From assembly GCA_010645155.1 (NCBI GenBank), contig JAAGOF010000071.1:927106-991105 (forward strand): a DNA stretch of 64,000 bases. The letters run 5' to 3'. This DNA is from Tigriopus japonicus. Lineage: Eukaryota; Arthropoda; Copepoda; Harpacticoida; Harpacticidae. The notes under the pieces are model-generated. The model saw only the letters and a list, made by a program, of their open reading frames with translations, ran no database searches and was not told the origin of the DNA. The translations under genes and the position numbers were made by a program. Below, in pieces: positions 3,001 through 63,954 of this stretch (position 1 is its first letter; every line of letters starts with the position of its first letter).

Positions 3001-3506
3001 GACTCTGAGCCCTCTTTCGTGTCTTGATTTTTTTTGTCGTCCTTGACCTCGGAGGTTGGTGACGGCTCTGAAGCCGCGGTTGAGGTTTCTTCTCCACTCG
3101 GAATATCAATATCGCCTATTTCGTCCACTTTTTTACCTCTTTCAATCTTTTTGACTTCTACCAAGTACCCTTCGACGGCAATCCAATCCGGAGTGATCTC
3201 GATCATCCGACATGTCGTTTGAATATCCCCATTCGGACCGATTTCCTCTTCGTCTTCTTGACACGTTACCTTGGTACCTTCCGTATTTGAAGCTACCTTG
3301 CAAACAATTTCATCACCGGGACTCATATATTTGTTGATTTCATACAAGGACGCGGTCTCCTCGGCGGTCAAGGTCTTGCCATTGAGCCCCAATTGAACCA
3401 ATCCCGGCCGAATAACGCCAATGGTCTCCTCATCATTATCCATGAACTCAAAAAGGATTGCCTCTTGGTTGACTTGGAAAACGGTTCCCACGACTTCTCG
3501 AGCCAT
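1..3506 (-). CDS. RS-rich nuclear protein with cold-shock-like modules and a Cdc73-N-like domain (3' end missing)
   Basis: One frame stays open from the ATG at 3506 to the window edge, about 1168 codons with no stop, so the C-terminus is missing. Residues ~5-80, ~210-290 and ~345-420 look like repeated OB/cold-shock-like modules, each with a G-x-x-aromatic strand and a later 'GD-[EK]-[IV]-x-C/A' strand (for example GDEVKAEV near 267 and GDKIKC near 397). Residues ~500-700 are helical and charged, with a coiled-coil-like E/K stretch. Residues ~728-824 match the N-terminal domain of Cdc73/parafibromin: an L-x-x-Y-x-x-x-KK motif, then KTNY, then a C-terminal 'P-x-x-R-x-x-D-x-x-x-L-x-x-YL-x-G'. 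Residues ~890-925 are an RS/RE tract, followed by a P/S-rich tail. A splice-acceptor-like CAG lies 13 bases before the ATG. The role is unknown; the RS tract and the Paf1-complex-like domain suggest transcription or RNA processing. The frame is solid and the domain calls are moderate. Confidence 0.8.
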   Translation of the reverse strand, partial: MAREVVGTVFQVNQEAILFEFMDNDEETIGVIRPGLVQLGLNGKTLTAEETASLYEINKYMSPGDEIVCKVASNTEGTKVTCQEDEEEIGPNGDIQTTCRMIEITPDWIAVEGYLVEVKKIERGKKVDEIGDIDIPSGEETSTAASEPSPTSEVKDDKKNQDTKEGSESKGEVESKQKTTPSKAEAQHPLPEVKEKSADITLVAGKIVQLKKPAKCFTGKAKVSSLYIVLSEGEYEGQKFLVQNNAFYIWGHCLRQADFLYNLRGGDEVKAEVHTANGAPKVKNCYIGQIKKEPISIVDDLEFGTWMGSRSLDYEAFMRWVDGKLMLKNFFPLASRVDDGELVEIAKVEAHTRGHGGLVKLTSGPHEGKFAFFTRRDLYIHCVNVGNSDLFRFLKIGDKIKCQLEEISSSEKRKFKKFLKSSNDIHFVAYVAFIGDVRPKSATLMPHESLTLKDFLKAFDLSTAEFQKMRIEPLPEDDHKETTRWEKPEENGTVLPPQMVVPSEVPLVNQFQQHAVAACNPHYPFYDAINTYASQHNMMAANNLCAKAIMIKNPDGPVSMELLRTKTDFEVAYHLAKIFTTALTQQLHGDISKNSLKKISRKKLQNDLKGQTYKLGAIGKSLESYLLDESSLMNAESPNILAARDQSIIQAKVDSLQSKFEEIERKNKEEMEEAKRREQTKKKEVSVSKMRNMLNQFKAAKGHHGSSKSERPSNKNEKSPSPPNEDNLSPLELVRLYTMKKKPIIRQAGKIHFEKRSFPEDLKTNYKVARTFGADIEFYSLLCIVYFIETIGRGKENYEKAAKQHNMPLIRNSDINELEDYLMGTKATSPNIVDLVDIERSPILASKYSNEDTSEYGGVPQIEVKEIPRNSKTSNSSSKPHSHSTKEQDRSDRKSRRSRERSRESSRRSRERERSRSKRLRSRERSHEKSKKKSREASPKVPSKYTSGEVGQALQNEYGTPTVPFALEKQDPVLNNEFKPFSTSRDSALDPRPFSRNGNSHGQPINVWSEPTPRSRSPAPLPKLGYERTRSPLERPQRDAPINPWQDQFPSTPKRDSKSSSGVYDPTLPTEPSPPRSPVRPKFQPPVSIGFSQRLPTPFALSTQSSNGRNDLDITTRDSSWKMPKQSELQDERLSRWSVSQESQPQNQPRPLDRWSGPQRDQTDQNQT

Positions 3507-4595
3507 GATGTGCCAAATACTGCGTAATAATAATAGGACACTAGTGTTAATACAACCGAATAAAATCAATGGTGTCCTCCATTCCAAATGGCCGCTCGGG
3601 TATAAAACCCAATCCTCCTCAAAGCCCCATCATATTACCTGATTTTCGAGGAGGTTCTTCCCAAGTTCGTTCGAGTTTCAAGGGCGAGATCTGGAAATGT
3701 AAATGACACACAAGTCAGGCAAGCTAAATCTGGGCAACAATGAGACCTGGAGAAGAGATAGGGATCCGGAAACAAGCAATCAAACTGGTGATCCTCGGCG
3801 ATTTGGTTTGTTGGTCTTGCCTCTCAACCCAAAAAATGAGGCCATTTGGCCAACGTCATCAGAACCGCTCCTCTAAGTATGATGGCTGAAAATCAGACCT
3901 CCTCAGTCAATCGTTGTAATACTTACCCTCACTTCAAAGCAGAAGATCAGGATAAGGAGCCGAATATCCGGATTGACCCCCCAACCCAGGATTTGAGAAC
4001 AACACGCCTTCTTCTTTGATCTAATGGCTTTATTGAACTGTGCGAAGCGGGAAACGAATTAACCAACCTCGAGACGGGTGGTTTGGATTCAGCTGATTGG
4101 GTTTAAAGAGAACAAACAAGCCTTGAAATTTTTCATGATGTTCAAGAAATTTTGCTTGGTGTAAGCTTTGAATGATAATGTTTATCTCAGAATAGGTACC
4201 TTAGCAAATTAAAATTTCAAAAGGAATAAATGGTTTTGACCGAGTTATCATTCTAAAAGTAAATTACTAGATTTTAATCAAGGGATTTTGTTAACACTAC
4301 TCCCGCTGATTGTGAGGAGTTTCGTGATATTTCTAATTCATTAATTAGTTATCGCTCAACCTCGTTTTACGATTTCATTTCTAGCATGGAGTCAAGGTAA
4401 GAATTAAACTCAGTATCAAAGGCTTTAAGCCTTTACTCTGTAGAGGTACCCTGGCATGGAGTACACGGGCTTCTTTAGCATGGAGGAGTACATAGGCTTC
4501 TTTATGGAGGGGGCTTTTATTCATCTGCTACATCAGATACCAAAAGGTATCAATTTGGAAGGCCATAGAACAGGTTATGTTCTTGAATCATATGG
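3507..4595. other. Intergenic, with a short imperfect tandem duplication
   Basis: No gene was seen. This stretch lies upstream of the RS-rich gene and downstream of the minus-strand dioxygenase. An AATAAA on the minus strand (4516-4521) is 75 bases past the dioxygenase stop and is its likely polyadenylation signal. A unit of roughly 28 bases beginning GCATGGAG and ending in CTTCTTTA is present twice at about 4454-4512. It makes a short artefactual frame (4456-4638) that I do not call a gene. Confidence 0.5.
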
Positions 4596-5978
4596 TTATT
4601 TTTTAACTTTGGTTCCATCGATCTCTATTCCCGTTTGAGTGGCCCAGCATTCTTTGATGGATGGATGCATCAGGTACTTTTCTCGCACCCAATTGGGCAA
4701 ATGGTCGCAAAGTGAGCTATATTCGGCGTAAATGGGTAGTTTGTTCAATAGAAACGCGGCAAATGGCAATGGCTCTTTTTTCAACGGGTACATCGATTCA
4801 GATCCAGGAGGTAGGAGCTTCTTGGGCATCTTCACATTGATATCGGTATCACAACCGGGTTCGTAAAAGAACGGGATGGAGAATCTAGACGATTGTAAAG
4901 GAAATGACAATATGAGAATTAAATGCTTCTAATACACAATCACCTGTCCTCTCCGATATCAATCACTCGATGAATGGTTGCCTTGAATCGTCCGTTGGAC
5001 ATTTCCGTCATTTGCTCTCCCAAATTGACCACAATCGTATTGGGACTCTGAGGAGGAGGGACGGCATACCAAATCCCATCTACTTGAATCTCCAATCCGG
5101 GATAATGAAAGGTTTGCAAAAGAGTGAGAAACCCGCTGTCCATGTGAGCTGGAGTCGATAAAACTGAAATTCAGAAGATATTTTATTTGAAAATATAAGG
5201 CACGTTCGGATGTTTAATAGTTGGATTAATTACTGCGTCCATCTGGAAGGTAAGCTCCTTGAGGAATGTTATCTACCCGTTTGGGGTATTGAAGAGGTCT
5301 AAAAGTATGCAAAGGGCAATCAGAAAACATTGGCTCAAAATAATTTGGATCCTCCTCTCCGGCTTCAGCTAGCAATCTCATAATCAAATCGGCTGTTTGG
5401 TGCATCAGATTCCGATGGCCATACATAACCTTGACAAAAAATATGTCTTTTACGAAATAATAAAAGAATAGAATTTGAGCACAGGTGCTTACTTCATAAA
5501 ATTCATCGAGCTCTTTTTCCCGGCCTTCCAATTTTAGAAAAGGAGTCCGTTCCACCAAAGGGATCCCTTTTAAATGTTCCGGAATCTCTAAAAGATGGCC
5601 AAGATCCAAACCGCGTTTACATGATAATTGTCCTGGTTGAACAGGAAAGTAGCCACGATATGAGTTTTTATTTTCCGGATTGAATGCCCTAAGATCGAGA
5701 TAAGACTATTAGTTTCCTCCTTACACTTTTTACTGGTTTTACCTTGTGCCACATTGTTTGATCTTCTCTTCTTCGGGAATTTCGTAAAAAAACATTTTTG
5801 TCCACTTCAGTAGTTTTGCCGAGTCATATCCAGTGATCCCTTTGATTTGGCAAAAACCAACATTTGAAAAACTGTCCAAGAGTTGTTGAATGGCCTCAGA
5901 TCGAGATGTGAGGTCAGACAAATTTTCTTGGGAGAGATCAATTTCTTCTAGAGTAATGTTTTTGGGTGAAGATTCCAT
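4596..5978 (-). CDS. 2-oxoglutarate/Fe(II) dioxygenase, isopenicillin-N-synthase-like, copy A
   Basis: Five exons can be read with GT-AG borders: 5743-5978, 5493-5688, 5234-5429, 4944-5163 and 4596-4884. They join without phase conflict into 378 residues, about the usual length for this family. An N-terminal DIOX_N-like part ends near 'NVGFCQIKG'. The catalytic core has the metal triad H216-x-D218 (in STPAHMD) and H274 (in ATIHRV), and the 2-oxoglutarate contact R283-x-S285; R283 is split by the last intron. The family is soluble and uses 2OG and O2 to hydroxylate or desaturate small molecules; the substrate cannot be inferred. The chosen start, the first in-frame ATG, begins MESSPKN. Its partner at 7019-8582 is a divergently transcribed paralogue with the same intron positions in the catalytic region. 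No break was seen, so it is probably functional. Confidence 0.88.
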
Positions 5979-7018
5979 TTTGATGACGCGGAGAAAGATG
6001 TCGTAGATTGAGCAAAGCTGGACTGAACTTCTTTTTCCTGGGAATCTTGCTCTGAACACATTGAAAACTGAATGATACCCAAACTAGTCTAGAGAAAGAT
6101 GGGAGCAACTAAGTGAGAAGAAACATTTAATTGACTTATCCTCATTGTGTTATTCATTGCAGTCGTTCATAAAAACTTCATCTACGTTTGACAATTATTG
6201 ACCGTGTTAAAAAACATCAAATGATGTTGCAGACAAGTAGAATGCCACTTCGATGCTGAATAATTCATTCCACACCAGAAGCTCGTTGTTCCATAACAAC
6301 TAATTCTTTTTCTTTAGTAAAAATGAGCATGTTACGCACACTTGTCTGTTGCGACACAAGAAAAACGTGTTTGAAGCAACATACTAAGACTGCAATGGTA
6401 CTTGATTGTTTTCTAGAAGTTTCTATGCGCTCTTCCTGCAGGAAATATTCGAACTATTTCAACCAATGAATGCTGCACTCGTATCTCGTTTTCTTATGCT
6501 CGAAATTTTTAACTGCCTTTTCTATTTTTGAAAATGTAGCCGAGTTTGGCCAAGTTCCCCTCAGAAAGGTGAATTACATGCAAACGAAAACGTGAGTTTT
6601 TAAAAATATTCTATCCATCCAGACGTCCTTGAAGCAATTCATTACAAAAAAACGAGGTGCACTGCATGAACGTTTCACATTTGGAATCGAATAAAACCCG
6701 TTTGTCAGTGAGAGCGGCCGCTACAAAGTGTCTTAAACAAGATCTTTGCTGATATATGGAAATTTCAATGAAAGATTAACAACTCATCTTTGGTACATGT
6801 GTTCTGTACGACGCTTTAACGCCAAGAATTTGTTACCAAAGGAGACAGACGAAACCCTTAACACGTCTTGAAAATTCTTCATACAAGAAAAGTAGTACTT
6901 CAGTTCAGCTTTAGTTGCACATAAACAAGTGTCCAAAGTTTCAGCCAGCCCAAAGAACCCCCTCATATAAAAACCGGTAACAAGTGGAACTGTTTGCAGT
7001 CTAATGAAATCCACAGCG
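5979..7018. promoter_or_regulatory. Divergent intergenic region between the two dioxygenases
   Basis: About 1 kb separates the two start codons. On the plus side a TATAAAA box at 6966-6972 is followed about 31 bases later by an initiator-like GCAGT (A at 6998), then the ATG at 7019. On the minus side an ATTCAGT initiator-like motif lies near 6070, without a clear TATA box. The two genes may therefore use different core promoters. No other gene was seen here. Confidence 0.5.
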
Positions 7019-8582
7019 ATGGCTCCAAATCGAAATGAAGGTCAAAAAGGGTGAATTCACTTGCCTCGACGCAATTTGAAATATTTTATGGCGAACATGT
7101 GGTGTTAATGTGCTTTATGTTTCAGGCTCGCAGAAGATGAGGTTCCGCCCAACATTCAATTGGAAATTATTGACTTGTCCCCTGAAGCTCTAGCTTGTGC
7201 TGACCGACGTGAAAAAGCCCGGCAACAAATCATTGATAGCTTCTCTACCTTGGGATTTTGTCAGGTCTCTGGAATGAAGGAATACTCGGCAGATGAACTA
7301 CTTCAGGGATCAAAATGGTTCTTTGATGATGTTTCGGAGCAAACCAAGCTCGACCAAATTGGTACCAAGTGAGTGGGGCATTTTCAAAGCCACATATACG
7401 TATATTCAAATGAAGTCAATGATAACCTGCTCTGATATTACAGAGCGTACAACTCGAACAATACGAATCATTATCGAGGCTATTTCCCCGCTCAACATGA
7501 TCGGATGTCATGCAAGGAAGGTTATGATGTGGGCCTCCAATGGGAGATTCCGGACCATCTAAAAGGCATTCCTTTGGTTGAAAAAACTCCGATGCTTCGA
7601 ATTCCAGGACGGGAAAAAGAGGTCGATCATTATTATGAGGTAAACATTTATAATCTTTGTTTGATGAGACTGGTGGTCAAAATCTAACATTGTAGACGTT
7701 GTTTCGCCATCGTGATATTGTTCGTGGTGTAGGAGATACCATTATGAGCCTTATTGCCGAGGCTGGAGGTGAAAAAAACGATTATTTCAAGCGAATGTTC
7801 TCTGAGTATGCCCAACACACTATCAGACCAATCCGATATCCTCAAAGAGTGGGTGAAGTTCCCAAAGAGGCAATTTTGCCAAATGGTCGAGGTCAGTTGA
7901 TTCCTATCACCAATCGGCGTTAAATCAAAGGCTCTTGTTTTCTTGCAAACTTTCAGTGATATCTACTCCCGCTCATGCTGATAGTGGATTCCTGACCTTA
8001 CTCCAAACTTTCAACTATCCTGGGCTGGAATTGCTCGTGGATGACAAATGGCATGCCGTTCCACCCAATCCGGAGACTCTTATCGTTAACGTAGGCGAAC
8101 AATTGAGTGAAATGAGCAATGGAAGGTTTGCTGCCACTGTCCACAGAGTTATGGATATCGGCAAATCCCGGTAAGGACTCTCATGCAGAACTCTTTTGCT
8201 TTTCTTCACAAGTCTTGATTGCCGCTTGTCCCCGGTGTTACCTGTCTCTCATTTTAGGTTTTCAATGCCGTTCTTCTATGAACCCGGAGCGGATGCGGAT
8301 ATCAACACCAAAATCCCAGCGTCGCTTTTGCCTCCCGGAACGGAGGACAAATTCGACAGATCTTACTATCCCTACGTGACATTCCTGTTCTTCAAGTTGC
8401 CCATCTATGCCGAGTACAGTCACGTCTCGGATAATATTCCGGAGTCTGTCTACAAGAAGTACATTGAAAATTACGAGCCCAAGGAATGCTGGGCCACGAA
8501 AACTGCAATTCAGGTGGATGGAGCCACTTTCATGCAGCGCAAGCTCAAAGCCAAATACCAAGAAACGTACGCAAAGTCCTAA
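7019..8582 (+). CDS. 2-oxoglutarate/Fe(II) dioxygenase, isopenicillin-N-synthase-like, copy B
   Basis: Six exons: 7019-7050, 7126-7368, 7444-7639, 7696-7891, 7957-8170 and 8258-8582. They join into 401 residues with consistent phases. The small first exon (MAPNRNEGQKG) is inferred. Exon 2 opens directly after a TTTCAG acceptor with no in-frame ATG, while the ATG at 7019 has G at -3 and +4, follows a TATA/initiator pair and ends at GG|GTGAAT in the right phase. Catalytic residues are H229-x-D231, H285 and R294-x-S296. The two 196-base exons equal those of copy A in length and phase, so the genes arose by an inverted duplication that kept the introns. Copy B carries a longer N-terminus (AEDEVPP). 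The substrate is unknown. Confidence 0.87.
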
Positions 8583-32223: not shown

Positions 32224-35200
32224 CTAGACAATTGGTAGGGAATCACTTTCCTTGCTGTTTTCAACCGCAACCGTTGCTTCTGTCGTGGCTTGACTGCTTT
32301 GATCTGCACGGGTATTCAGAATTCGAGTCGAGGCCGTTGGATTAAGGGCCCTCGTGTTCAAGACTTGGCCGCTCAAAAGTGGAAATAAACGGGTACTAAG
32401 TGAACCCGTGGGAGAGAATGGAGAAGGGGTGGGTTCGAAAGTACTTTTGGGCTTTGGAGTTGACTCCTTCGAAGCCGGAGAAGATGCCGGCCTATTTTTG
32501 GAGTGCTTCTCTATCAAATTAGCGAGAGCGGTAGACACTCGTCGAGAATTACTCGAGGAAGTGCTAAGAGTATCATTAGAGCCTCTATCTTCCGATTGGT
32601 TGGGGCTCGTTATGGGCTTTTGGGTGTCTGTTATTGATGAATTGGACACAGACAACGATTGAAGCTCCTCTTCCTTTTGATCCTCATTGATAGGAGTGTT
32701 TGATGTTGTGTTGCTCACATCTTCTCCGTCTTCATCATGATTATTATTGGCATCTTCGCTGCTGCTTGTGCTGTTGTGGTCGTCGTCAGTCTGGTGCCGA
32801 ATTGTGATTAATGGCTTCTTGTTACCCCGACGATTCGACGAAGAGAACTTGGGCCGAGAACTATGTCTGAAGGGATGTTTTCGCTTGATTCCATTGTCGC
32901 CAACGTACCGACTTTTGGCTTTTAAGTCGGATTTGACACGAGGTGTCTGTCCGTCTGGTCTAACTAACGGAAGTTTATCATCAGGGTTCAACTTGTTCTC
33001 CAGTCCTTGAGCGTTGGAATCAATTGACTTTTCAAATCTGGTTTGATCGGAGGCTTCCACTGTGGCTACTTTACGAGATAACTTGTTTCGATTGAACAGC
33101 TTTCCGCGGTTGGCCAATCGAGCGCGGATGTTGGACTTGACACGGGGTTGTTTGCCATCCGGTCTCAAGGGAATAAGTTCCGGATCTCTTTCTGCTTCTT
33201 CGAAAATGGGATCAGGAGTAAGGGGGGGTTCGAAGGTAGAGGTTGACGAAATTCCCCCCGGGACTTCTGTTACAGCTTCATCGTCATATTGAACGCCAGC
33301 CGTAACAGCCAAACCGGGCACCCTCTCGGTTACAGGATCGGCGACATCGTCGTCGGATACGTCTTCCGGCGTAGTTGTTACCGCAACAAAGTTAATGTTG
33401 GATAAATCAATATCCACTTTTTTGCCCAAACGCTCATTTTGGCCAGATTTTTTCCTCTGCCAACGGTTCTTTTGGGCAATTTGAAGGTTGGACTTGACAC
33501 GTGGTTTTCGTCGAGGTGGGTATGTCACAATTGGGGGTAGTCGTGGTTCCACAGTGGTTGTAGGGGGTAGGGTCAGAATAGCACCTGAAGCAACCCCGGG
33601 AATTCGGCCTGGTTCTTGATCAAGGGATGCTTCTGAAGTGACCTCATTTTCAGGGGTTGTATGGGGAGAGGGAGTTGGACGTCTTCTAGGATTGAATCGA
33701 GACCGGCGCCCATCCAAAGATGTAGGCTGATTATGAGTAATAGGAGAACTCGATTTGTTTTCCGAGGTGAGTGTAAAATCAGGTAAGCCTTTAATGGTGG
33801 CCGTTCCTTTGAAGTGAGCCAAAAGTTGTTCCTTGGTGAGTAAATGTGATGGTCTTGAACCTTGGGCTCGAGGAGAGAAATCGAGCTGAGGCTCCTCCGT
33901 TGTGGATATGGTCCTCTCTGTTGTTGTTGTGGTGGTTGTGGTGGTTTCTGGTTCTTGGGTAGTGGTGGTGAATCTAGATGAACGAGAGAAGCTAGGGCGA
34001 GCTTTTGGGGTAAAAATGCTTCTTGTTGTTGACACAATGGGTGAAAAGTTATTGTTGTTGTTGTTGGATGGTGTAGGTATGAACCTGGATGATAATCCAA
34101 ATGAGCGGACAGTGGACGTAGAGACGGGAGCAAATGTAGTCGATCGCACAGGGGCAACAGTGGTTTCAACAGATGGGATCACAGTTGTAAAGGGTGGGTC
34201 ATCTTCAAAGTCCTCGGCATAGAAATATTCCTCGTTTTTATCGTCTTGAGCTCTTAATGAAGGAGCCTCTGTGGTTCGAACTGACAAAGGTCGGGCAAAA
34301 TTATTCACCCTGGGTCGAGGAGTGGTGATGAGAGGATCTTCGTAGTCCGAAAATGGCTCCAGAGTGACGTCCACTTCGTTTTCAATTTCATTGATGCCTT
34401 CGTTTCCAGTCACAGACTTGCCGTCTCTGAGAGGTGTGAGTTGAGCGAGAAGTTGATTCAATTCTTGTCGAGTTTTCTTATTCTTATTACGTCTTCGACC
34501 GGTGATACGGTTTCCCTTCTTGAAAAGATGATGGAAATTGCGTTTCCTAGCCTTGATATTCGATTTCACTCTCGGTCTACGCCCATCAGCCACTTTGGAA
34601 GGTGGACACTTGAAAGGATTGGAACATCCTTTGTCGAAGGTATTATTATCAAAAGCGCCATCGTCATCATCATACTCATCATCGTCGTCATAATCATTGG
34701 TATTTTGTGCAGGAAGTGGCGAGGCAACGCCGAATTGGTGCTTTCTGATCTTGTTCCTTCTCGAACCTCCAAAGCGTCCTCGATTTCGTTGCCTTGCCAA
34801 GATGTCAGACTTGACTCGAGGCTGTTGACGAACACGAGTAGGTGGGGTATTGACATTAACACTAGTGCGCGGCTCTTCGTCGAACTCATCGACTTCGCCA
34901 ACAAATTCAGGCTCTTCTGGTTCCAAAAAGACATTTGGTCTGGCAGATACACGAGGCCGTTTTCGGATGATAGGTTGTCTTCCACCACCTCGTCCTCGGA
35001 ATCTGTTTGCCCCTCCCCTTTGTTTGAGATGAACATTTGACTTAACACGTGGTGGACTACCCGGTGGTCGAGCACGTGGAAAGGATGGAAATCCATTACG
35101 CGGTTTCTCTTCGATAAAAGTGTTGTCAGAGAACGGTTCGGGGGTTGAAACCTCGAATGTGGGCTGGATCGTTGAGGATATGCCGGGTGAATTTGAAACG

Positions 35201-38200
35201 GACACATCGACAGGTCCGAAGGTGCTGGAAACGAAAGGCGGTCGAAACGTGGTGGAGACGAATTGAGGCCTTTCCTTTCTAGGTTTGGCCGAGAAGGGAT
35301 GTATCTTTGGCCCTGGAGTTGGGCTGAAGAATGGTCGAGAAGTGACGGGAGACAGAGTGCTTGAGGGGAAAATGGTATTGGGGGTTGTGGGATTGAATGC
35401 TTGGAACCCTGAGGGAGCAAACGAGTCGGTGACTGTGGGCTCAAAGGGTGCCACAGAGGAAGGCCCACGTGTTCCTTGAGAAATGGGACCAAACCCAGAA
35501 TTTTCAGTTGGTCCAAAGTTGTCGAAGGGGTTTTCAGTTGTTCCAATTGTAGCCAATGGAGAGGCTGTTGGAATTTGGTCGAAAGGAGATGAGTTGTCTT
35601 GCGGCTTTCGAGAGCCAAACTTTTTGCGATTGAACCTGTTCCTATTGTTGTTGTTATTGTGACGTATGTTGGATTTCACTCTGGGAGGACGGCCATCTGG
35701 TCTGACCTCGGGTCCTCCAATAAAGGTGTTCTGTTCCACTTCAACGTTTTCATTATTGGTGTTCTCGTCGTCGTCAAAGGGAGAAATGAAATTGATATTG
35801 GCGTCAACAAGTTCGACCTTGTTACCAATCTTGTTCCTGGGACTCTCGTTGAACCGGTTACGGCTTCTCAAAATGTTGGATTTCACTCTGGGAGGTCGAC
35901 CATCGGGACGCACCACCGGGCCTTGGTTGTCATTTACTTGGCTATTGAAGTTGTTGATTTCGTCAACCGTGTCAAATCCTTGGTCTGTTCCGAAATCATT
36001 CGAAGTGTCAATTGTCACCTTGTTCCTGTTTCTATTCTTGAATCGGTTTGCGTTGTGCCTATTAGCGTGGATGTTCGACTTGACACGTGGAGGTCTTCGA
36101 GTGGTCTTGGTCACTCCGATTGGGATGGCAGTAGTGGTGGGTGAGAGGAATGGAGGCCGGTTTGGGATCGGAGGTGTCTTGGGTCGTGGCCCAAAAGGTC
36201 TGGTGCTCACATCCTCGTCCTCATCATAGTCTGAACCTCCTTGGAAACCGTTGTTGGAAGTAATCCTAGTATTCTGCCCTCTGCCAGAGTCGCGGTTTCC
36301 AGTCAACACTGGCGAGCTATTGGCTAAAAAATGATTGGCCTCGTTTTGTTGGTTGGGCGTGGTGAACCGGGTGTTCTCCTCCTCATATTCATAGTAATCG
36401 TAGTTATCCACTCCATAGTCGTCTTCGTACAGGTTATCTTGTTCCCCTGGTTGTGAGGAGGGTTGCTGCTTTTGACCGAAATCATTGGTAAACAACAGCA
36501 CGGATTGCTGGCAATCGACCTCAAACCAATTGGTGCAGACTAAATTCTGTTGATCGAATACGGTGTCATTCGGACACAGAAATTTAAAGTCCCGGAACTG
36601 CAAAGAGACAAAAGGAGAAAATTTTAATTGTCATCTTGAGGTTGTGGTCCAAGAAGGGTAACTAACGAAACCGTCATGCGAGTCATAACGGATCCTGTCG
36701 AATGGTATTTGCACTGACACCGAAAATGGAGGGGCTGTCCTTTGTATCCTATTACTATTACCCTTATTGCTCCCTGTTGCAAATACTTCCTATTTGCCTG
36801 CATGAGGCCATCGCATCCTAATGTCAAGTTGACTACAACACATCTGTGGAAATACGCAGCGTCTGTAGCCCATATCAGGATTGACCTTTCCCCTTCCCCA
36901 TCTAACCTCCTGTTCATGCATTATCAATCTTTCTTCAGCTTGGGTAACCTTGGGTAACGGCAAATGTCTAATTTCACGCACCTCCAATAACAAGGCAATA
37001 CGTAGAGTGGATAGTTTTCCGCATTCTACGAAACTGGTAGGCTTGCTATTTACCGTGGATTTGCTGGCACTTGCCTATCATGACAATCTGACCCTGAAGT
37101 CCTTGAGATTTGGTTCTTATTGTTGTTTTGGTATTTGTTGTTTTTTTTCTCCCAAAGGAAAACCACCATGGCTATCATCATCAAGCCATAAATCGTTGCT
37201 TTTGAGAAATCTTTGAAAACAATCGTGGATGAGCCCAAAATGGTTACAATGCCTTTGAAACAGTACTGCTCAGCTGGCATCATCATCTTTTGTTCTCTAC
37301 CTTGAGCATGGAGATCATCTTCATTTCAGGACGCACCAAGCCTGCTCATAGTCTACCTAGAGTGCAGCTCAGGGCAAAAAGCATCATGATGATCACCATC
37401 ATGATCATCATTATTATTGGGTGCATGCATGAGAGCAGCCAGCTCAAAAATAAAAAATATATATTCTATTCTTTGCCCATACACATACATCGAAACTGAG
37501 TAGTCTACGACTTTATTGAAAGCAAGAACGGAACGGATGCACCGAAATCAATCAATTTCTTCCACTCTTAGATCCCACCAGACTCAAAACGGGCACGTTT
37601 AGAGGATGACCTTGCACTGTCTTAACAAGGTCTGGTATTGGCATCCTTCAAAAATTGCATATCAAATTTACACCAATTGGGTTCTGAATAAAACCCGCTA
37701 GCCACTTAAAATGACGAGCGAGATTCGGCGAATTCGGGAGACGAATTTCGTTCGTGGAATCCCAAAATTGGTTGGAAACTCATCTTCCTTCAAGTTCATT
37801 TTGAAGAAGGTAGGAAGATCTTTTAAATGATCATTAGCTGTGGTTCTTGTCAGGGCCCTTAGCTCCCCAAATCAACGACCCATCTAAGAAGGATGAGTAC
37901 AGAGAAACGATTTTCAACGATCGATCCGCCAACAAGGCTTCTGGAGTAGTGAACTAGAACGAACAAATGTACGGACGAAGCAAGCCGCAAAGCAGCTATT
38001 TCAAGTCGGAAATTCCTCAGTTGACGAACAAGTTCAAGGCCTTTTCTCGGTTGTGCTCTAGGCTTGGAAAAATGAGTTGTCGCTCTTAAGTACTGAATAG
38101 AAATGAGGGCTATTTTTAGCGAACTAATGCAAGGTCTTCTTCGCTTTTCGTTCTACCACCACGTGCCTTTTGCCAGGGTAAAGATTATAATTATGCGAAA

Positions 38201-54968: not shown

Positions 54969-55955
54969 TCAAACGAGTTTCTGTTTATCGGACGACTGAA
55001 GTTCTTTCTGAAGGTCAAGGCAGTCGGCCGTAATGAATTTGTACCAAAACCAATGAATGGGGACGGTTGAAAAGTGCCATAAGGAATGAGAATCAAATGA
55101 CCAGAGCAGTGGAGAAAAATCCAATAACTCCAATAAGATCGTACCGTTAAGTAGTAGGACAGCGATGAGAGCATTTTTGACGTGAGGTTTGGTTTTCCAA
55201 TGATAAATGGTCCAAGCAATCCAACATAAGGAGTTCACGGCCCCCACTGAAACGTTTAGGGTCATATTGTAACCGTAATCAAATTTAATAAAGGCCATTC
55301 TGTAAATGTGATTGAAGAACATGGCTAGACAGGCCACGCAAGCGGCATTGGATATCCAGTTCCAATTTGTTCCACAGATCCGAAGAATGAAGGCCATCAG
55401 AGAATAAGTGACTATCGAGAAGGCGCAAAAGTAATCCATTTTCTCAGTCCAATCAAAGTCTCGAGTATGGAACACGGTGGACCAAAACCAAGTGTTCATA
55501 GATATCAAACCATACAAGCTCCACACGCGATACATCCGTGTCGATGGTTGAATTGTTCCACGGAATTTCCTCAACATTATCGCGTGGGGCAAGAAATTGA
55601 GAATCGAAAAAAAGGCCGCAGCAGGTTCTTGGACACCAAATATTCGTTTGAAAGGCCATTTCCCATGAAATTGGGGCGTTTTTTCCCCTAGTTTGTGAAA
55701 TGCTTCCACCGTCTGCCACATACACGTATATCGGCACTCATCCTGACAAGACCATTGCAGCACATTTTCGAAAAAGGGTTGATTTGAATGAAACACTTCG
55801 ATATGAACGGACGTGGAACAATTCATGGAAAAGCATGAACTTAGACAACGCTTTTGGAATCCGGATCCATCGCCTTTGGAGGCTATCACCAAATTATATG
55901 AGGAACAGACGACGAGAACAGTTATTACTAAAATACACTTGGTCTTTGGATCCAT
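54969..55955 (-). CDS. PGAP3: Post-GPI-attachment-to-proteins factor 3 (Per1-like), GPI lipid remodelling
   Basis: A single-exon, 328-residue protein, as long as the family usually is (~320). Residues 1-26 are a signal peptide. A cysteine-rich lumenal part follows (CLSSCFSMNCS and WSCQDECRYTCMW, near 37-80), then about seven membrane segments. The CREST-superfamily catalytic motif is visible as FWSTVFHTRDFDWTEKMDY (H163, D166, D174), with a late conserved histidine in SLWHFSTVPIHWFWY. The family removes the unsaturated sn-2 acyl chain from GPI anchors in the Golgi. An AATAAA (54953-54958, minus) lies just past the stop. The ATG is preceded by a strong splice acceptor 20 bases upstream and by LSM3 only 107 bases away. 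Confidence 0.93.
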   Translation of the reverse strand: MDPKTKCILVITVLVVCSSYNLVIASKGDGSGFQKRCLSSCFSMNCSTSVHIEVFHSNQPFFENVLQWSCQDECRYTCMWQTVEAFHKLGEKTPQFHGKWPFKRIFGVQEPAAAFFSILNFLPHAIMLRKFRGTIQPSTRMYRVWSLYGLISMNTWFWSTVFHTRDFDWTEKMDYFCAFSIVTYSLMAFILRICGTNWNWISNAACVACLAMFFNHIYRMAFIKFDYGYNMTLNVSVGAVNSLCWIAWTIYHWKTKPHVKNALIAVLLLNGTILLELLDFSPLLWSFDSHSLWHFSTVPIHWFWYKFITADCLDLQKELQSSDKQKLV

Positions 55956-55990
55956 GTTGGCACTTTATTTCTCCACTGCAGACAGCAAGA
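55956..55990 (-). promoter_or_regulatory. 3' splice acceptor before the PGAP3 ATG, overlapping the LSM3 polyadenylation signal
   Basis: On the minus strand TCTTGCTGTCTGCAG ends at 55976, an excellent acceptor, and leaves a 20-base leader before the PGAP3 ATG. An AATAAA (55964-55969) lies within that leader and is the only close polyadenylation signal for LSM3. This is the layout expected of an operon junction using trans-splicing, or of a 5' UTR intron. Confidence 0.6.
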
Positions 55991-56062: not shown

Positions 56063-59000
56063 TTAGTTGCCACCTCGCATGGGAGGTGACACCAAAATGA
56101 CTCCGTCTCCTCGAACAAAGAGCATCGGAATGTTCCTCTTGGTTGAGCGATAGACTTCCTCATATGTCTCTTCATCGATTTCTACCGTGGTTACAGTTTC
56201 CTCCACATCTCCCAGAATCATGTTCAAATGCTGATCGTAAGCCTGCAAGGAGAAGAAAAATTAAAACATGGACAGCTTCACAAACAGAATGTAAACACTT
56301 CGTTATCTCGCCTTGCGCCTACAAGCGCCTTCCTTGACTTTGGGTATCGAAATCGATACTAAAATGAACGTACAAGTGGAATCAACCCAACTCGAAATTT
56401 CTAATCTTTGGCTGAAGCAAATAAAACTATTTTTTTTGTTTTATCGGTCGTTTTTTGTTTTAGGCACAAAACTTCTTCCTTCCGTATTGCTGGTAATATA
56501 ATTTGAAAGCTTAAATCTAAGTCTTTTAGGCCCCGTCAAACTTAATGCATTTGAATTGACAAACGTAGTGTATCGATCAAATGAGGCCTGACACGATTAA
56601 GATAAATGAAAATGTAAAAAGTAACAAAATCATAAAATTCAATGGTTGCAGATTGACCGAAGGATTTAGTATGTAAACTTCTGATCATTTTCTATAATCC
56701 TTATCCTAAATGTTAAAACTCATCGATACAAAATGTCAGGTGGGTGGAATTTTCTTCTACACGTCCGACAATTTTTTTTTAGGTTTAACATTTTTTTAAG
56801 TAATCGTGTTTGTTAAATCCGTCTTGAATTTGGGATTAGAAATCACGCCCTCTGAAGAGTTCTTATTTCCAACCTTACAAACAATACAATAGACTTCCAG
56901 GAGCTTCCAGGCCTTCTATTAACCTAACGGCAACAATACAAGTAATAGTCTTTTTGTAAGAATGTTTGTGAAGGGAAATAATTTCTACGACTTTTTCAAA
57001 ATATGTTATCCTCGATCGGAAAAGTCGAAACACTCATCAGTACTGATGGAGCTCAAGTTGGTTTTCAATCTCCTCAAAAAAATTTGCGCGCCCTACTTCG
57101 TTGCCAATGCCAATTTACGCAAAGTGATACATTTGTCACAAATATGGGAAAGCGATTTGTCAAAAAAAATATCCAAAAAGAACCCCTGTTTTTGGAGACC
57201 TCGGACCAAGGATGCCATCAAGATTACGCAAAGATTTTTTCACAATATGACTGGAAAAGACCAATGACATTGATGGCAATCCTAAAAGAGTGAACAGATT
57301 GAATCCCATCAGTATTCATCAGGCTTCAATCAAATTCTTATTGGGTTTGCAAAGTCAGGACAAAACTAGGTTCTTTATGACATCGGAATTAAAAAATGGC
57401 TTTGGGCTAAGGGGGCGTTTTCGACAAAGTTTAATTCTGCTAAGCCGTACAAATGGGGTTTTGAGGAAACGTGGAACAAACACTACTACGTTAGTATCAA
57501 ATAGTTATCTTGAGAAGACAGTTTTTCAGGAAGCCAATTACAATCCGATGTATTGAGGTGATTTTGGCCCTTTCTTTTCATTACTTTTTTGGACATTGCT
57601 CACAATAATCTCTAAGTATTGAAGTTTCCTGATTGGAAAACTGCAGAGAAAATAGGATGTGCCAAATCATCCCCCTCCCAAAAAGGGATCACCTGGTTCC
57701 ACTATTGAGTTGTTTTTCTTCAATGTGACAGCATTTTCAAATCGTTACATGGGGTTAAATTTAAGTTACCTTTTGTTTGCAATAGTCATTTTCTGCACTG
57801 TTAGACACGGCATAATCTCTGAAGTCATGAAAAAAGGCAGAAAAATGTTAAAACACCTCCGAAGAGCAACAAAAAAAGTTTTTCATGCAAAAGCCTTTCA
57901 GCTAGAGATATTTTTTGACAACTTAAAGGGTAAAAAATCCAATTGAAAACTATGTAGGACTTGGTTCAAAACAATAATTTATAAGAGCTAATTTCATTTC
58001 CGATTGGTCGGTTAGAGCACACAAGTGTAATCCGATTGCATAAAAATGTACTGAAATAATAGAGGGAAAAGACCCCCAAAACAACATCTGACCAAATTTG
58101 ACGAAATTAGTAAGTTTGATGCTCACCTCGTGGAAGTCGTGAGAACGATTTCCTCTTTCTTCGCATGACGATGGCGACAGAAATCTCAAGCGTATCCATA
58201 TCTTTGTCCGATCAAGTTTCTGTTATTTGAAACAAGACCACAACCAAGCTATCACTTGTTTCTCTATTCAAAAAGTCCATCTCTGATCTTCCACCCTTAC
58301 GTGATTACGTCCAATCTTGCAATTATTGAATTTAACTACCAACCATGAATCAAACCAAAGACGTTTTCAAGAAAACGACGTGAACAGTTAGAACAGAAAT
58401 TGAAATTCTCATTTGAATCGAACGATGTCTCCCGATTTGCTGCGACCCAGGATTTAGGATTCAATAACTCGGTGTAATAATCCAAAGATTGGTTGAAAAA
58501 ATTAAGTGCCATCAAAGCTGGCAAAACGACGAGATTCGTCATCTCTGTTAAAAAGAACTTTCATTTTTGCCTTTTTTAGTGCGTTTTGGGAAAGCTTAAC
58601 ACTTGACCAAAAAGTTCGATTGAGCTTACAAAACTGGCAACGTTCAAATAAAAATAATCCACTCTCATCCCTACAAACAATCTCCGTCCAAGTGTGAAGT
58701 CATCTTTGACCTGACCCAGAAAGCTGAGCTGATATCCGTTTGTTTTGAAAGCTAATCTAAATTTCGAGGGAAAAACCTCCGCAACTGTTAGTGCAAAGGG
58801 GAAAGCCTAGACCAAATATCCCAAACATGAACTACTGTAGGCACTTAAAAACTACATGCTAGAAGAGACTTAAAAAAAAAAGAGAGGAATATGATCTCAC
58901 TTACATTCAACCTTCCCTTCAGCTCTCGCTCATTTCTCATTTTGACGTAGATTCTTTCGTCCAAACTTAGCCTGATGAGGTCCAAGGGCTCTTCCACTGC

Positions 59001-62000
59001 GCTCACGGCAGCGCCGGAGTTCTGAAATCGAAGCACCCAAAATTCGTAGGCAAGCAGCAGCAATCCATCTTACCCAAAGAAAGAGTCTGGCAAAGATTGA
59101 TGACAGCTTTGATGCTCTCGCGTTCGTTCAAGAAAGAGTCCAACGAATCCAGTCCGTCATGAATTTGATAACTTTTATTGACTCATCCAACAAAATCAAC
59201 GCGATAGCAAAATTCGCTTGACACTTCTCTATTTTTGTTTCAAATCAAGCTTTCGGATCTCTTGGATCATCTATCAGTTTATGACGATGACTTGAGCATC
59301 TACAGAGGGGGCATTCAAATGGAGGCGTGCCTCAAACACGGACACGATGGCAATTCATGTTACCAGAAAAAGAAAGAGACCTACTTATTTTTCAGTCAGG
59401 TACGAACATATCTCATGGCACCACAAACTCGAAATGAAATGGTTTATGAAGCTACCTGACACCCGGATTGGATTTTGTTCTCTTCGCAAGATACTTGATG
59501 GCGATACTGGGTCTGCTGATGTTGATGGGTAGAGGAGGAAGTCCATCCAAATTCATCCTTGCGGGATCAACCTTTGGAGCCAGATGTCATCTTATGCTTC
59601 TTGTTTTCAATCTCGTAGATGAGCAGTCGCCAAAGTTTGACGACAAACACATCGGCTTCCTCATCCAAGACCATTTGAACATCTTCGATAACGGCCTTAG
59701 GAGTAGATCCAGCCAGAACTTTGGAACAAATAAAGTCGGTGAGGGCGGGCTCGGGTTCACCAATGTACTCGGCAATCTTTTTGCTAACCCAAGGACGAAT
59801 TCGCCGCTCCATGAGATGTTGATCCACCAGGTCCCAATTGATACTATATTCAAACAAGGACTCTTTGTCCGTCGGGATCTTTTCGATAAGAGTTTTGATG
59901 TGCTTTCGCTTGTCCTCGCTACCTGATTTGTGAACGCTGGACGACGATGATGACTCGTCTTTGCGATTGCCGGACAAGGATGGAAGCTTCTTCTTTTTGG
60001 ATGGAGACACATTGTCGTCGTCATCAGCTTGGGAGAACACTTGACTAACCTCGAGCTTCTTACGACCACTGACCTGCAACGGTTGTTTAATAGTGGGAGG
60101 AACAATGGTGGGAGGGTTCGAGTCTGAGGAGGGCTCTCTCACGTTATTCCGAGGTGAATCGACAGGAGCAGGCACAGCTTGGATAGGAGCGTGAGAGGGT
60201 GGCGTGGATTGGGTGGTGGGTGACACGGGTGGGCGGATCACAGATATCATGGGATGATGGTGATGATGATGTTCGTTACTAATATTGTCTGAGACATGAT
60301 GGCGGTCATTGAGATGGGATGGAGGCTCATGGTGGTATTCGGGTAAGGGTTCACTATCAAAGTTGTCAGGGCTGGCTTCTAGGGAATTGCCGTTCGGTTC
60401 GATCACGGCAATATCGTCGTCATCGTCATCATATCCGGTGGATGCTTGGGGAATAATCACGTCGGGTGTGGTGGCGGCTTGAATGGCCGACGCAATCATC
60501 ATCCGCCGTTGAAGTTCGGCATTGGGATCTTGAAAGCCTTCCTTCATGATTTGCGCTTTGAGCTCCTCGATCTCTTCCTTCTCACGGAGACGATCTTCCG
60601 TGTCCTTCTGAGCTTCGCGTTCACGCTCCAACAGTCTCTTTTCAAGCTCGCGGTTTTTGTAAAATTTCTCATCATCGCGGGTGTCTTCATAATCCTCGAG
60701 GAATTGGCGCAGTTTACGCGCCTCTTTCTCGAGATCAGCTCGCCGTTTCAGTTCTTTCTCGCGATAACGGGCGTGGTCTTTGGCCATTTTCGCTTCTCGA
60801 AGCTCCCATTTCCGAAGACGCTCCTGATAACTGGCCTCCTTCTCGCGAGCCTTCTTTTCAGCCTTGATGGCTTCTTTCTCTTCCTCCTCCATCTCACGTT
60901 CCTTTAGAGACTTATTCTCACGATCACGTCCGCCTCGATCTCTTGAACGGGATCGAGAACGACTTCGGGATCGGGATCGGCGGTAGCTATGTGATCGCGA
61001 TGACCGCATTCGGGCATCGGCTTGATCCCGACCCCCTCGCATCCCACGATCACCACCTCGACTTCCACCGCGGTCACCTCCCCGATTGAGACCACGATCG
61101 CCACCGCGACTTCCCCCTCGATCCGAGCGATCCATGCGATCTCGACGTTCCATTCGCGATGGAGGCGGGGTTCGAGTCCGACTTCGGGATCGAGAGTATG
61201 TGCGACGACGACTGTGGATCGAGCGTTCACGGCTATCACGGATGGTGATGATGCTCCGTTCGCGTTTGCGCGTATCGCGTCGATCGGGCTCGTCCGGCGG
61301 TGGACCCTCGACTTCTTCGCGTTTCTTTTTCTCTTCCTCCTTCTCTTTCTCGCGAATCTTCATAGTTTCGCGGAACTTGTCGATCTCACGATGAATAATG
61401 TCTCGCTTGCCATCTTCCATTTCCACATCGTCCAAGGACTCTTTGGGTCCGGTTTGGTAGTCCTCATTGTTCTTCTTTTTATCGGCTTTCTTGACTTCGG
61501 GCGGGACGTAGTTTTGCATCTCTTGGCTATGATCCTGGAGGATGGCGCCAATGCGTTCCATGGCCATTTGATCTTCGTGTCGCATGGCCGGATCGACGCA
61601 CTCTTCATCCTTGATTTCGGCCCCATCTTCGACGGGAGGCGGTGACTTTCCGCCCATCATCTTTTTCTGTCTTTGTCGCTTGTACTCGTGTAACACGTCC
61701 TTCGTCTTGGAGTCCACCTTGACCACGAGTCGTTTATCGCCAATCATCATATCATGGAGGATGCGAATAGCGCGGGCAGCCGCATCCGGATTGGCGTATT
61801 CGCAGAATCCAAATCCCTGCAATTTGCCCGTGGCTCCTTGAACCCGTTTCCAATGAATGATGGCCCCGCAAGTCGTCAACAAATGGCGAATCATGGCATC
61901 TTGGGCCCTTTCCGTGATATTACCCACAAAGACGGTCACGGGTGGGCCCGTGGGCACTTCCATGGCCGGCATAGCGGGGCGGGCCATGATGTGGGGCGGG

Positions 62001-62275
62001 CCCGAGCCTCGAAATCGCGGTGGATGACCCATCATGTTGGGCGGTCCGTGTCCGCCGTGTCCGCCATACATGGGCGGTTGGCCGGGCATGAATCCGGGGG
62101 GCGGGCCTCCGCGGTAAGCCATGATGGGCGTGTTTAGCGTCAGTCAAACTCGGTCCGGGATTCAGTGGGCGTGTCTACTCAGTCTGATTGTTCCCTGATT
62201 GATTGTTTGTGTCTATTTGTTTGATCGTTTTTGTGTGTGTTTTTAACTGTTTACCTGTTCCGCTTCCTCAGTCAT
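56063..62275 (-). CDS. LSM3: U6 snRNA-associated Sm-like protein LSm3, three exons
   Basis: Exons 62255-62275, 58905-59021 and 56063-56242 give 105 residues; known LSm3 proteins are ~102. Exon 2 encodes [20 protein letters not shown]...GRLN and exon 3 starts [10 protein letters not shown] and ends near [17 protein letters not shown], nearly identical to animal LSm3. Sm1 and Sm2 motifs are both present ([14 protein letters not shown]). Exon 2 has no ATG. The only fitting start I found is MTEEAEQ at 62275, ending CAG|GTAAAC in phase 0; it resembles the acidic M-x-D-x-V-x-Q start of known LSm3. This makes intron 1 3233 bases long, containing all of RBM25 on the same strand. LSm3 is part of the LSm2-8 ring on U6 snRNA and the LSm1-7 ring in mRNA decay. 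Exons 2-3 are certain; exon 1 is inferred. Confidence 0.85.
56243..58904 (-). other. LSM3 intron 2
   Basis: A 2662-base GT-AG intron (GTAAGT donor, TTGCAG acceptor). Only short frames of no recognisable family were seen on either strand. Confidence 0.7.
59173..59178 (-). terminator. Polyadenylation signal of RBM25
   Basis: AATAAA on the minus strand, in GTCAATAAAAG, ~390 bases past the RBM25 stop and ~150 bases before LSM3 exon 2. It would end the RBM25 message inside LSM3 intron 1. Confidence 0.55.
59567..62122 (-). CDS. RBM25: RNA-binding protein 25 (RRM + RE/RD-rich + PWI), splicing regulator
   Basis: An intronless frame of 851 residues, as long as vertebrate RBM25 (~840). Residues 1-60 are a G/P/M-rich leader. 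An RRM spans 61-138, with RNP2 VFVGNI and RNP1 [10 protein letters not shown]. Residues ~285-400 are RS/RD/RG-rich and ~400-540 a long charged coiled coil. After a low-complexity H/P/S stretch (a run of six histidines near 625), a PWI domain ends the protein (~755-845). The PWI signature reads RPWVSKKI, with valine for isoleucine. In the family, RBM25 joins U1 snRNP and exon-junction factors to choose splice sites in nuclear speckles. The start ATG (MAYRGG) is 132 bases downstream of the LSM3 exon 1 donor. Lack of introns is unusual for this gene and could reflect retroposition or intron loss. Confidence 0.93.
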   Translation of the reverse strand: MAYRGGPPPGFMPGQPPMYGGHGGHGPPNMMGHPPRFRGSGPPHIMARPAMPAMEVPTGPPVTVFVGNITERAQDAMIRHLLTTCGAIIHWKRVQGATGKLQGFGFCEYANPDAAARAIRILHDMMIGDKRLVVKVDSKTKDVLHEYKRQRQKKMMGGKSPPPVEDGAEIKDEECVDPAMRHEDQMAMERIGAILQDHSQEMQNYVPPEVKKADKKKNNEDYQTGPKESLDDVEMEDGKRDIIHREIDKFRETMKIREKEKEEEKKKREEVEGPPPDEPDRRDTRKRERSIITIRDSRERSIHSRRRTYSRSRSRTRTPPPSRMERRDRMDRSDRGGSRGGDRGLNRGGDRGGSRGGDRGMRGGRDQADARMRSSRSHSYRRSRSRSRSRSRSRDRGGRDRENKSLKEREMEEEEKEAIKAEKKAREKEASYQERLRKWELREAKMAKDHARYREKELKRRADLEKEARKLRQFLEDYEDTRDDEKFYKNRELEKRLLEREREAQKDTEDRLREKEEIEELKAQIMKEGFQDPNAELQRRMMIASAIQAATTPDVIIPQASTGYDDDDDDIAVIEPNGNSLEASPDNFDSEPLPEYHHEPPSHLNDRHHVSDNISNEHHHHHHPMISVIRPPVSPTTQSTPPSHAPIQAVPAPVDSPRNNVREPSSDSNPPTIVPPTIKQPLQVSGRKKLEVSQVFSQADDDDNVSPSKKKKLPSLSGNRKDESSSSSSVHKSGSEDKRKHIKTLIEKIPTDKESLFEYSINWDLVDQHLMERRIRPWVSKKIAEYIGEPEPALTDFICSKVLAGSTPKAVIEDVQMVLDEEADVFVVKLWRLLIYEIENKKHKMTSGSKG

Positions 62276-62480
62276 TTCTGTCTACAAAATCAGCCAAAAT
62301 CTGGACAAATAACCGAGGAAAACGATTTTGACCGATTGGGCCGATGTCTATGAATGTCACGCGGGCGACGAGGGGCGGAGCCGAAGACGAGGGGCGGCGT
62401 GGGCGGGCTTTAAAATGGGGCGATTCTGAGTCTCGGGCTTTCTTCGGCTTCGGTTTCTCTCTCTCTCTCTCTTCACTCGA
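62276..62480 (-). promoter_or_regulatory. GC-box promoter region shared by LSM3 and RBM25
   Basis: GC-rich, unlike the surrounding DNA. GGGGCGG/GGGCGGG boxes lie at 62372-62378, 62391-62397 and 62401-62407. A TATA-like TTTTAAA (minus, 62409-62415) lies among them and a CT/GA run at about 62456-62473. No coding frame is supported. It is the only promoter-like region seen upstream of both genes. Confidence 0.5.
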
Positions 62481-62561
62481 CAAAATTGACAATGCGGATT
62501 CATTCAGGTATGCTAAAATGGAATTAACCATGAGGTCAAATCAGGCATGGCGGATGGAGCG

Positions 62562-62860
62562 TAGTGATGTGAAATCTGGGCTTGGGCAAGTTTTTTCACG
62601 GGAGGTTGCAAGTTAGGGTCACCTAATGGAGATTTTGTGCTTTGCTAACTAACTCAAGCAAACACAAATTTGAGGTTTACTTGCAACCCTGATCCAAAGT
62701 TACAAAAGTCAGGGGCGTGTTTCAGTGCTTCTTAATGAAAAACCGGTTTATGAAGATAGGTAGGCAGAAGGCAATACCATTACACTGAAGGTAAATTGGC
62801 GACCCCGGTGTACGATGTCACGAAAAAAAAGCTTGCCCAAGCGCCCAAGTCACATCACTA
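62562..62860. mobile_element. hAT-like MITE, TAGTGATG family, 299 bp
   Basis: The ends are TAGTGATGTGA (62562) and TCACATCACTA (62860). The inverted similarity continues through CTTGGGCAAG and a T6-8 run to CACG/CGTGA. Identical ATGGAGCG flanks it directly (62554-62561, 62861-62868). It has no coding capacity. It belongs to the same family as 52024-52897. Confidence 0.9.
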
Positions 62861-62868
62861 ATGGAGCG

Positions 62869-63954
62869 ACGAGGAACAAGTTAGTTTAGAAGTGAAAAAT
62901 TGAAGAACGAGATGGGACGGGAAGTTTAGATTCATTGAAAGGGGCATAACGCTTTTTAATGCAAATCAAAATGGAGTTGGTAAGGCTCAAATGGCTTACC
63001 CATGTGACTTTTTGCAATCATCTTCATCTTGAACTCGGATTCGTTTGAAATGCTTTAGTAATATGAAGAATTTAACAATGGAAAGGAGTCGAGACCTAAG
63101 ATATTTGTCAGCATGTCCAAATCTGATTTGTGACGGATTTGGCTTGGGCTTGACAAAGTTGGCAAAGTTAAAAGGGAAGATGATTGTGTGGCCATTTCGG
63201 CCACGCCGTTCAGCGTGACCGGTTTGTGACTGGTTTTTGGATTCAAGAAACTGCCATAATGCCGATGAATGGACGAGTATAAACGCGCTCTAAATCCTGC
63301 AGCCACACGAAATGAATTTTTAATGCTCCTAAGGCATTTTTGTCATTGAATCCATACGAAGTCAGAGTATGAACGTGTAGTGTCATGTTTTATTAATAGA
63401 GGTTTGAGGCAGCGTCGTAAACACGGTTTTCGAAACAAAAAGGCAAAAAAATATAAATCTCCTCATTTCAAGAAAAACTTCAACCTTACAACAATGTGGG
63501 AGTTCATACGGGTGTATGAATTGAACCCCAGTTTTAGTAATTCGTTTCACAAATCATTGCTTGCGTCAAGTTTCGCCACCTCAACACCGCAAACAAACGT
63601 TTATGGCGAATTTCAGGGGGAGCAAATTCAAGCTCGGCGAGCTACATGAAGCTAAGTTTTCAAGTCACTCTCCTTTTTCAAATGCTTTTATTTAGCACAC
63701 AAAGTTAATTATTTTTGTGCTTATATATCATGAATACTCTTCCTGTTTGCCCTGAGCTCATGCTTAGAGACACAAATCTTTACATTTTCACCTTGAATTA
63801 GACCTAGAAACAGTGCCTCCATTCGTTCTCACCCCATGGAAAGTTTGCACTATTTCTTGTCAAATATTGTAACTGAAATTAGACCGTCACGAATTCAAAA
63901 GGGACGTTCAAGTTTCAAACACTATTCTAATCAAAGTTTTCCTAAAGAATCAAA
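62869..63954. other. Intergenic
   Basis: No gene was supported. An 83-residue frame on the minus strand (63055-63306) lacks an initiating ATG at its head and any recognisable domain. A TATATAT at ~63724 is too far from the next ATG to be a clear promoter. Confidence 0.4.

Follow-up and report, generated by a model that had tools for sequence, protein, structure and literature searches.

A single-exon RBM25 gene nested in the putative first intron of LSM3 in Tigriopus japonicus: a candidate transcription unit with two fates

In a stretch of 64,000 nucleotides from the harpacticoid copepod Tigriopus japonicus (GenBank assembly GCA_010645155.1, contig JAAGOF010000071.1, positions 927,106 to 991,105 of the forward strand; hereafter the window), the gene for RBM25 was confirmed to lie whole and uninterrupted within intron 1 of LSM3, on the same strand, given an LSM3 first exon that was assigned from its likeness to the N-termini of related proteins. 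This is the arrangement put forward in the original prediction, and the coordinates of RBM25 (62122-59567) do fall within those of the intron (62254-59022). We consider it most likely that the two genes form a single transcription unit that has two fates, with a common start region and retention of intron 1 deciding the product as a plausible means. The exons, introns and nested gene are as follows:

62255..62275, minus strand: coding part of LSM3 exon 1, MTEEAEQ, with donor CAG/GTAAAC, assigned from an N-terminus profile
59022..62254, minus strand: LSM3 intron 1, 3,233 bases, containing RBM25
59567..62122, minus strand: RBM25-like gene, a single open frame of 851 amino acids with RRM and PWI domains
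58905..59021, minus strand: LSM3 exon 2, with AG before it and GTAAGT after it
56243..58904, minus strand: LSM3 intron 2, 2,662 bases, with AATAAA absent and one ATTAAA at 57435
56063..56242, minus strand: LSM3 exon 3, with CAG before it, ending in the stop codon

In order to place the first exon of LSM3, an N-terminus profile was made from 48 of 120 LSm3 relatives, namely those 100-110 residues long in which the conserved block begins 10-22 residues in; these gave 42 unique heptamers, including a few resembling extended starts. Candidate exons of 7-12 codons in phase 0 were then scored over the 4,919 bases upstream of exon 2. A clear assignment was apparent: MTEEAEQ headed the 27 candidates with 12.07 bits versus 1.15 for the runner-up, and its score was unequalled among 540 candidates when the two strands of the whole window were scanned; of 1000 dinucleotide-preserving shuffles of the sequence upstream of exon 2, 0 gave a candidate as high. 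Consistent with this assignment, among the related LSm3 N-termini are MTEEVEQ (P0032) and MAEEAEQ (P0033, from Acartia pacifica). The earlier proposal that LSM3 starts at this exon is thus favoured by a score far above chance, and we regard MTEEAEQ at 62275-62255 as the first exon of LSM3 with near certainty. It could be argued, given that the exon was identified from sequence alone, that MTEEAEQ is a chance likeness and that the actual first exon is situated elsewhere, whether in the interval from RBM25 to exon 2 or at a far upstream site. This is extremely improbable in view of the shuffles and of the best alternatives, which reached 1.15 bits within these 4,919 bases and 2.13 bits over the further 10 kb upstream (the top of 49 first-exon candidates there); moreover, phases 1 (n=20) and 2 (n=24) yielded a sole equal-scoring candidate, which was the ATG of MTEEAEQ itself with a later GT.

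When the exons at 62275-62255, 59021-58905 and 56242-56063 were joined, they gave an LSm3 of 105 amino acids with a match to the LSM domain (9.2e-19). Its best solved relative is the LSm3 of entry 3jcr (3.2e-51), which we take to be the human protein, and its identity to relatives is 76-90% in the best 120 of 3343. The acidic MAEExEQ-like N-terminus of LSm3 is present, and LSm3 is the nearest family member. It had also been claimed that exon 2 has no in-frame ATG, which proved incorrect: there is one at LSm3 codon 35 (58940-58938, by arithmetic), within the conserved Sm fold. However, LSm3 is mostly invariant from E17 to R36 in 20 aligned sequences, so a start at codon 35 would entail the loss of conserved residues. 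The companion claim, that no in-phase ATG lies between RBM25 and exon 2, was upheld, as the frame 5' of exon 2 is open for 16 codons, up to a TAA at 59072, and is ATG-free. Because exon 2 is without an ATG ahead of the Sm fold, LSm3 is apparently made only from RNA that spans RBM25 and from which RBM25 is spliced out.

The same conclusion is reached from a search of the genome for further copies (194.85 Mb in 158 contigs), in which only the best candidates from a first pass are scored. Exons 2 and 3 of LSM3 have matches only at the RBM25 locus, bar a 27-bit partial match on another contig, so LSm3 should be supplied from this locus; supply from another locus is unlikely, and LSM3 transcripts should therefore cross RBM25. 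The only LSm3-like first exon detected lies 5' of RBM25. RBM25 itself has a full-length match at one genome locus only, together with two partial matches of 36 bits each that span residues 63-181 and 43-137. No second full copy of RBM25 or LSM3 was found in these 194.85 Mb, in which a diverged copy could escape the search. We had considered RBM25 to be a candidate retrocopy of an intron-bearing parent; this idea was unsupported, the protein-wide match being at a single locus only. For similar nesting elsewhere, a collection of viral contigs, not an animal collection, was also searched with the RBM25 and LSm3 alignments and gave 48 and 21 pattern matches, respectively, with no relative among them. 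A likewise non-animal collection of bacterial and archaeal contigs gave one weak match to RBM25 (27% over residues 633-803, in the Parcubacteria record L001); neither outcome bears on whether the arrangement is conserved.

The nested frame runs on the minus strand from an ATG at 62122 to a stop codon ending at 59567, in one exon, and its 851-residue product is RBM25 as judged from the encoded domains: RRM_1 at residues 64-132 (2.6e-12) and PWI at 775-841 (1.1e-11), with a charged middle rich in RE and RD between the N-terminal RRM and the C-terminal PWI (by eye). Its identity to 16 relatives, which were chosen from the search list, is 43-60% in the alignment. The start, ATCATGGCT, includes the AUGGCU of the start consensus AAAAUGGCU reported from two calanoid copepods (PMC4664967). 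Five of the 41 best RBM25 relatives (P0122-P0162) were predicted on contigs of >9 kb (P0123, P0129, P0132, P0135 and P0139), of which P0132 is without the N-terminal part. Should these contigs be genomic, with each protein encoded in a single frame, an intron-poor RBM25 would predate T. japonicus. An in-frame fusion of MTEEAEQ to RBM25 was considered and rejected, as the sequence from the in-frame stop (62146-62144) to the ATG of RBM25 contains no AG.

Four further features bear on how the two products might be made:

62276..62410, minus strand: presumed promoter region, with CCGCCC at 62406, 62397 and 62378 and a CCAAT-type pentamer at 62339
62243..62275, minus strand: upstream frame of 10 codons, if intron 1 is retained
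59174..59179, minus strand: AATAAA, the sole one of this strand in intron 1, the likely 3' end of RBM25
55964..55969, minus strand: AATAAA, the likely 3' end of LSM3, 8 bases from a PGAP3-like start codon

We propose that polymerase would start upstream of 62275 and give one pre-mRNA for both genes. If donor 62254 were joined to the acceptor before 59021, with the polyadenylation (poly(A)) signal of RBM25 bypassed, the 3.2-kb intron would be removed and LSM3 mRNA would result. Conversely, retention of intron 1 together with cleavage of the RNA 3' of the 59179-59174 signal would yield RBM25 mRNA, the leader of which would carry the LSM3 start codon as a 10-codon upstream frame. This short frame (ATG..GTA AAC AGT TAA) had been predicted and can be read in the sequence; it ends 120 bases 5' of the RBM25 ATG, and the interval between it and the RBM25 start is ATG-free. 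From 62300 to 55800 the minus strand holds two AATAAA, one after each of the stop codons of RBM25 and LSM3. In the whole window AATAAA occurs 87 times versus a shuffle mean of 79.9 and is not commoner than chance, so it is the placing of the signals rather than their number that is informative. We infer the use of exon 1, a common start site and a choice between splicing and polyadenylation; the tick ChAT/VAChT, CPNE1/RBM12 and unc-60 loci were counted as precedents for such a unit.

Several observations weigh against a single unit of this kind. The weaker poly(A) signal ATTAAA occurs in the same 62300-55800 interval of the minus strand at 60091, in RBM25, and at 57435, in LSM3 intron 2. Near-cognate codons (GTG, CTG, CTG and TTG) stand in frame shortly 5' of exon 2, and the 132 bases at 62254-62123 leave room for a separate RBM25 start. 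The exon 1 donor, CAG/GTAAAC, is non-consensus, with a predicted U1 pairing of -8.3 kcal/mol versus -11.8 kcal/mol for the consensus, and the exon 2 acceptor is pyrimidine-poor: by a generic acceptor matrix, 7.7% of window AGs do as well, and it ranks 7th of 209 in the intron. The same matrix rates the exon 3 acceptor as excellent, with 0.03% of the AGs in the window doing as well. A weak donor was not retained as support for regulated retention, the exon 1 pairing being intermediate and stronger than that predicted for the exon 2 donor (-5.1 kcal/mol). The splice sites of intron 1 appear usable but below optimal, and are best treated as leads as to regulation.

A promoter region common to RBM25 and LSM3 plausibly fits the sequence. 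It is important to note that 9 of the 12 GC boxes listed in 58900-63900 fall within RBM25, and GC boxes are thus weak promoter evidence here. The two genes might instead be nested with two promoters, RBM25 starting just 3' of exon 1 and LSM3 upstream, with contact between them only by interference as in mammalian H13/Mcts2, a precedent for this arrangement (PMC13309782). There, transcription of the nested gene promotes intronic polyadenylation of the host; the likeness to RBM25-LSM3 is a gene nested in a host gene, whereas that pair is imprinted and its nested gene is driven by an intragenic promoter of its own. In T. japonicus, 132 bases separate the LSM3 donor from the RBM25 ATG, and the 5' part of RBM25 is GC-rich with GC boxes of its own from 62104 to 61982. 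On the other hand, the space is so scant that two promoters would be hard to separate, and a GC box is absent from 62254-62123; we judge this arrangement somewhat unlikely. The nearest recognised upstream frame, adenosine-deaminase-like by eye, lies on the opposite strand from around position 1944 of L016 and is ~3.7 kb away from exon 1; that gene probably has no share in the LSM3/RBM25 promoter. It forms a tight same-strand pair with its neighbour (L016:1944-4913, plus strand, by eye), its last frame ending at 3856 and a WD40 (CIAO1-like) frame following from 3873.

The close spacing of RBM25 and LSM3 could also suggest an operon, in which a bicistronic RNA would be cut after RBM25 and LSM3 would receive its cap when a spliced leader is trans-spliced to the acceptor of exon 2. 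Copepods are known to have spliced leaders, and leader-based libraries of two calanoids include complementary DNAs (cDNAs) of LSm3 (PMC4664967). The 16-base calanoid leader core TTGCTTGATTCACTTC has near matches at 305 places in the genome at <=2 mismatches, versus 145 for the reversed pattern as control, a roughly twofold excess that speaks for an operon; among the first 100 of the 305 places the best match has 1 mismatch and none is exact, and for the siphonostomatoid-type leader there was no genome match at <=3 mismatches. The known copepod leaders were not detected in the genome, which may have a leader of another sequence, and the survey found neither leader type in harpacticoid data sets (PMC4664967). 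The operon fails on the start codon: with a leader joined at 59021, the conserved Sm fold would have no ATG 5' of it, the frame being closed at 59072. We therefore consider it very improbable.

If RBM25 and LSM3 do share one transcription unit, then a further step can be imagined, although tuning of the splicing choice by RBM25 protein is speculative. RBM25 has been described in 5' splice-site choice, together with the U1 small nuclear ribonucleoprotein (PMC6329799). In a self-wired switch, it would act on donor 62254 of the intron that holds its own gene: with more RBM25, its own coding sequence would be removed more often and more LSm3 made for the U6 particle, and less RBM25 would lead to retention of intron 1 and more RBM25 mRNA. 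Such a loop, if true, would be a homeostat that couples splicing capacity on the U1 side to that on the U6 side, the LSM3 start codon serving as the RBM25 upstream frame. The hexamer CGGGCA, which we take to be the RBM25 motif, occurs once in intron 1 (at 61830), the entire minus strand of the window having four. By this count, which stands without a computed chance expectation, there is no sign of enrichment in intron 1, and feedback, which gains no support from it, is decidedly unlikely in our estimation.

Gene pairs of this kind are already known, and RBM25-LSM3 would be a further member; the cholinergic locus, CPNE1/RBM12 and unc-60 follow the same logic. In the tick Ixodes scapularis, ChAT and VAChT share exon 1, and a single exon in intron 1 of ChAT holds the whole VAChT frame (PMC7524744). 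That locus is similar to ours in having a single-exon guest in the first intron of the host on the same strand, and there one start region serves two proteins of one pathway; it differs in that its shared exon rests on transcripts whereas sharing by RBM25 and LSM3 is deduced, and in that the LSM3 first exon bears the host start codon, a would-be upstream frame of the guest mRNA. The RBM12 coding sequence likewise lies in one exon, with its promoter and 5' exons in common with CPNE1, and the authors think that splicing and/or polyadenylation decides between the two; their Table 1 has 24 human promoter-sharing pairs, some of them fusion genes (PMC2568002). Unlike the exon of LSM3, the exons shared there are non-coding and were shown by cDNAs and reverse transcription-polymerase chain reaction; the arrangement is reported from human, mouse and zebrafish, and the genes are others. 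The unc-60 gene of Caenorhabditis elegans (ADF/cofilin) has one first exon and two downstream exon series, and the outcome is switched when intron 1A is retained, which RNA-binding proteins promote (PMC3469465). It resembles the proposed unit in its one first exon and in intron retention as a switch, but there both products come from spliced RNA and are isoforms of one kind of protein.

No report of RBM25-LSM3 nesting was found in the open-licence papers searched, among the titles and abstract openings listed, which in part were a subset of the matches. What would be special to this pair, if confirmed by transcripts, is that the guest has the coding first exon of its host as an upstream frame and that the two proteins both serve splicing. 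Provided that the choice is real, the cell could make a core protein of the U6 particle only at the cost of the coding sequence of a second splicing factor, which would be discarded, and the two products would thus be mutually exclusive per transcript; the locus would then offer a compact natural test of splicing versus intronic polyadenylation, with the product of one branch possibly acting on the choice. Automatic gene prediction may mis-model such loci.

The next gene 3' of LSM3 encodes a PGAP3-like Per1 protein, 98% identical to one protein and 67% to EukProt Tk02557, a label that probably denotes Tigriopus kingsejongensis, also a harpacticoid copepod. Its ATG, at 55955 on the minus strand, is 8 bases past the LSM3 AATAAA (55969-55964), and a sequence resembling a 3' splice site, ctaatcttgctgtctgcag/tggag, ends at 55976 on the same strand (by a generic score, 3.6% of the AGs in the window are as good). 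The 3' end of LSM3 thus seems to overlap the 5' end of this gene on the same strand. Elsewhere, no Rfam family matched in the window at gathering thresholds, and a frame of 1468 residues (32227-36630, minus strand) had no Pfam match at E 0.01. A head-to-head pair at 4599-6083 (minus) and 7109-8579 (plus) resembles non-haem dioxygenases by eye; DIOX_N reached 21.2 bits in one frame, under the cut-off of 27.3, and the frame at 4599-4928 was without a match. Lastly, a 1209-residue frame that extends to the edge of the window (3-3629, minus strand) combines a CDC73_N-like domain at residues 771-906 (61.3 bits) with an RS-rich stretch after it, which looks unusual.

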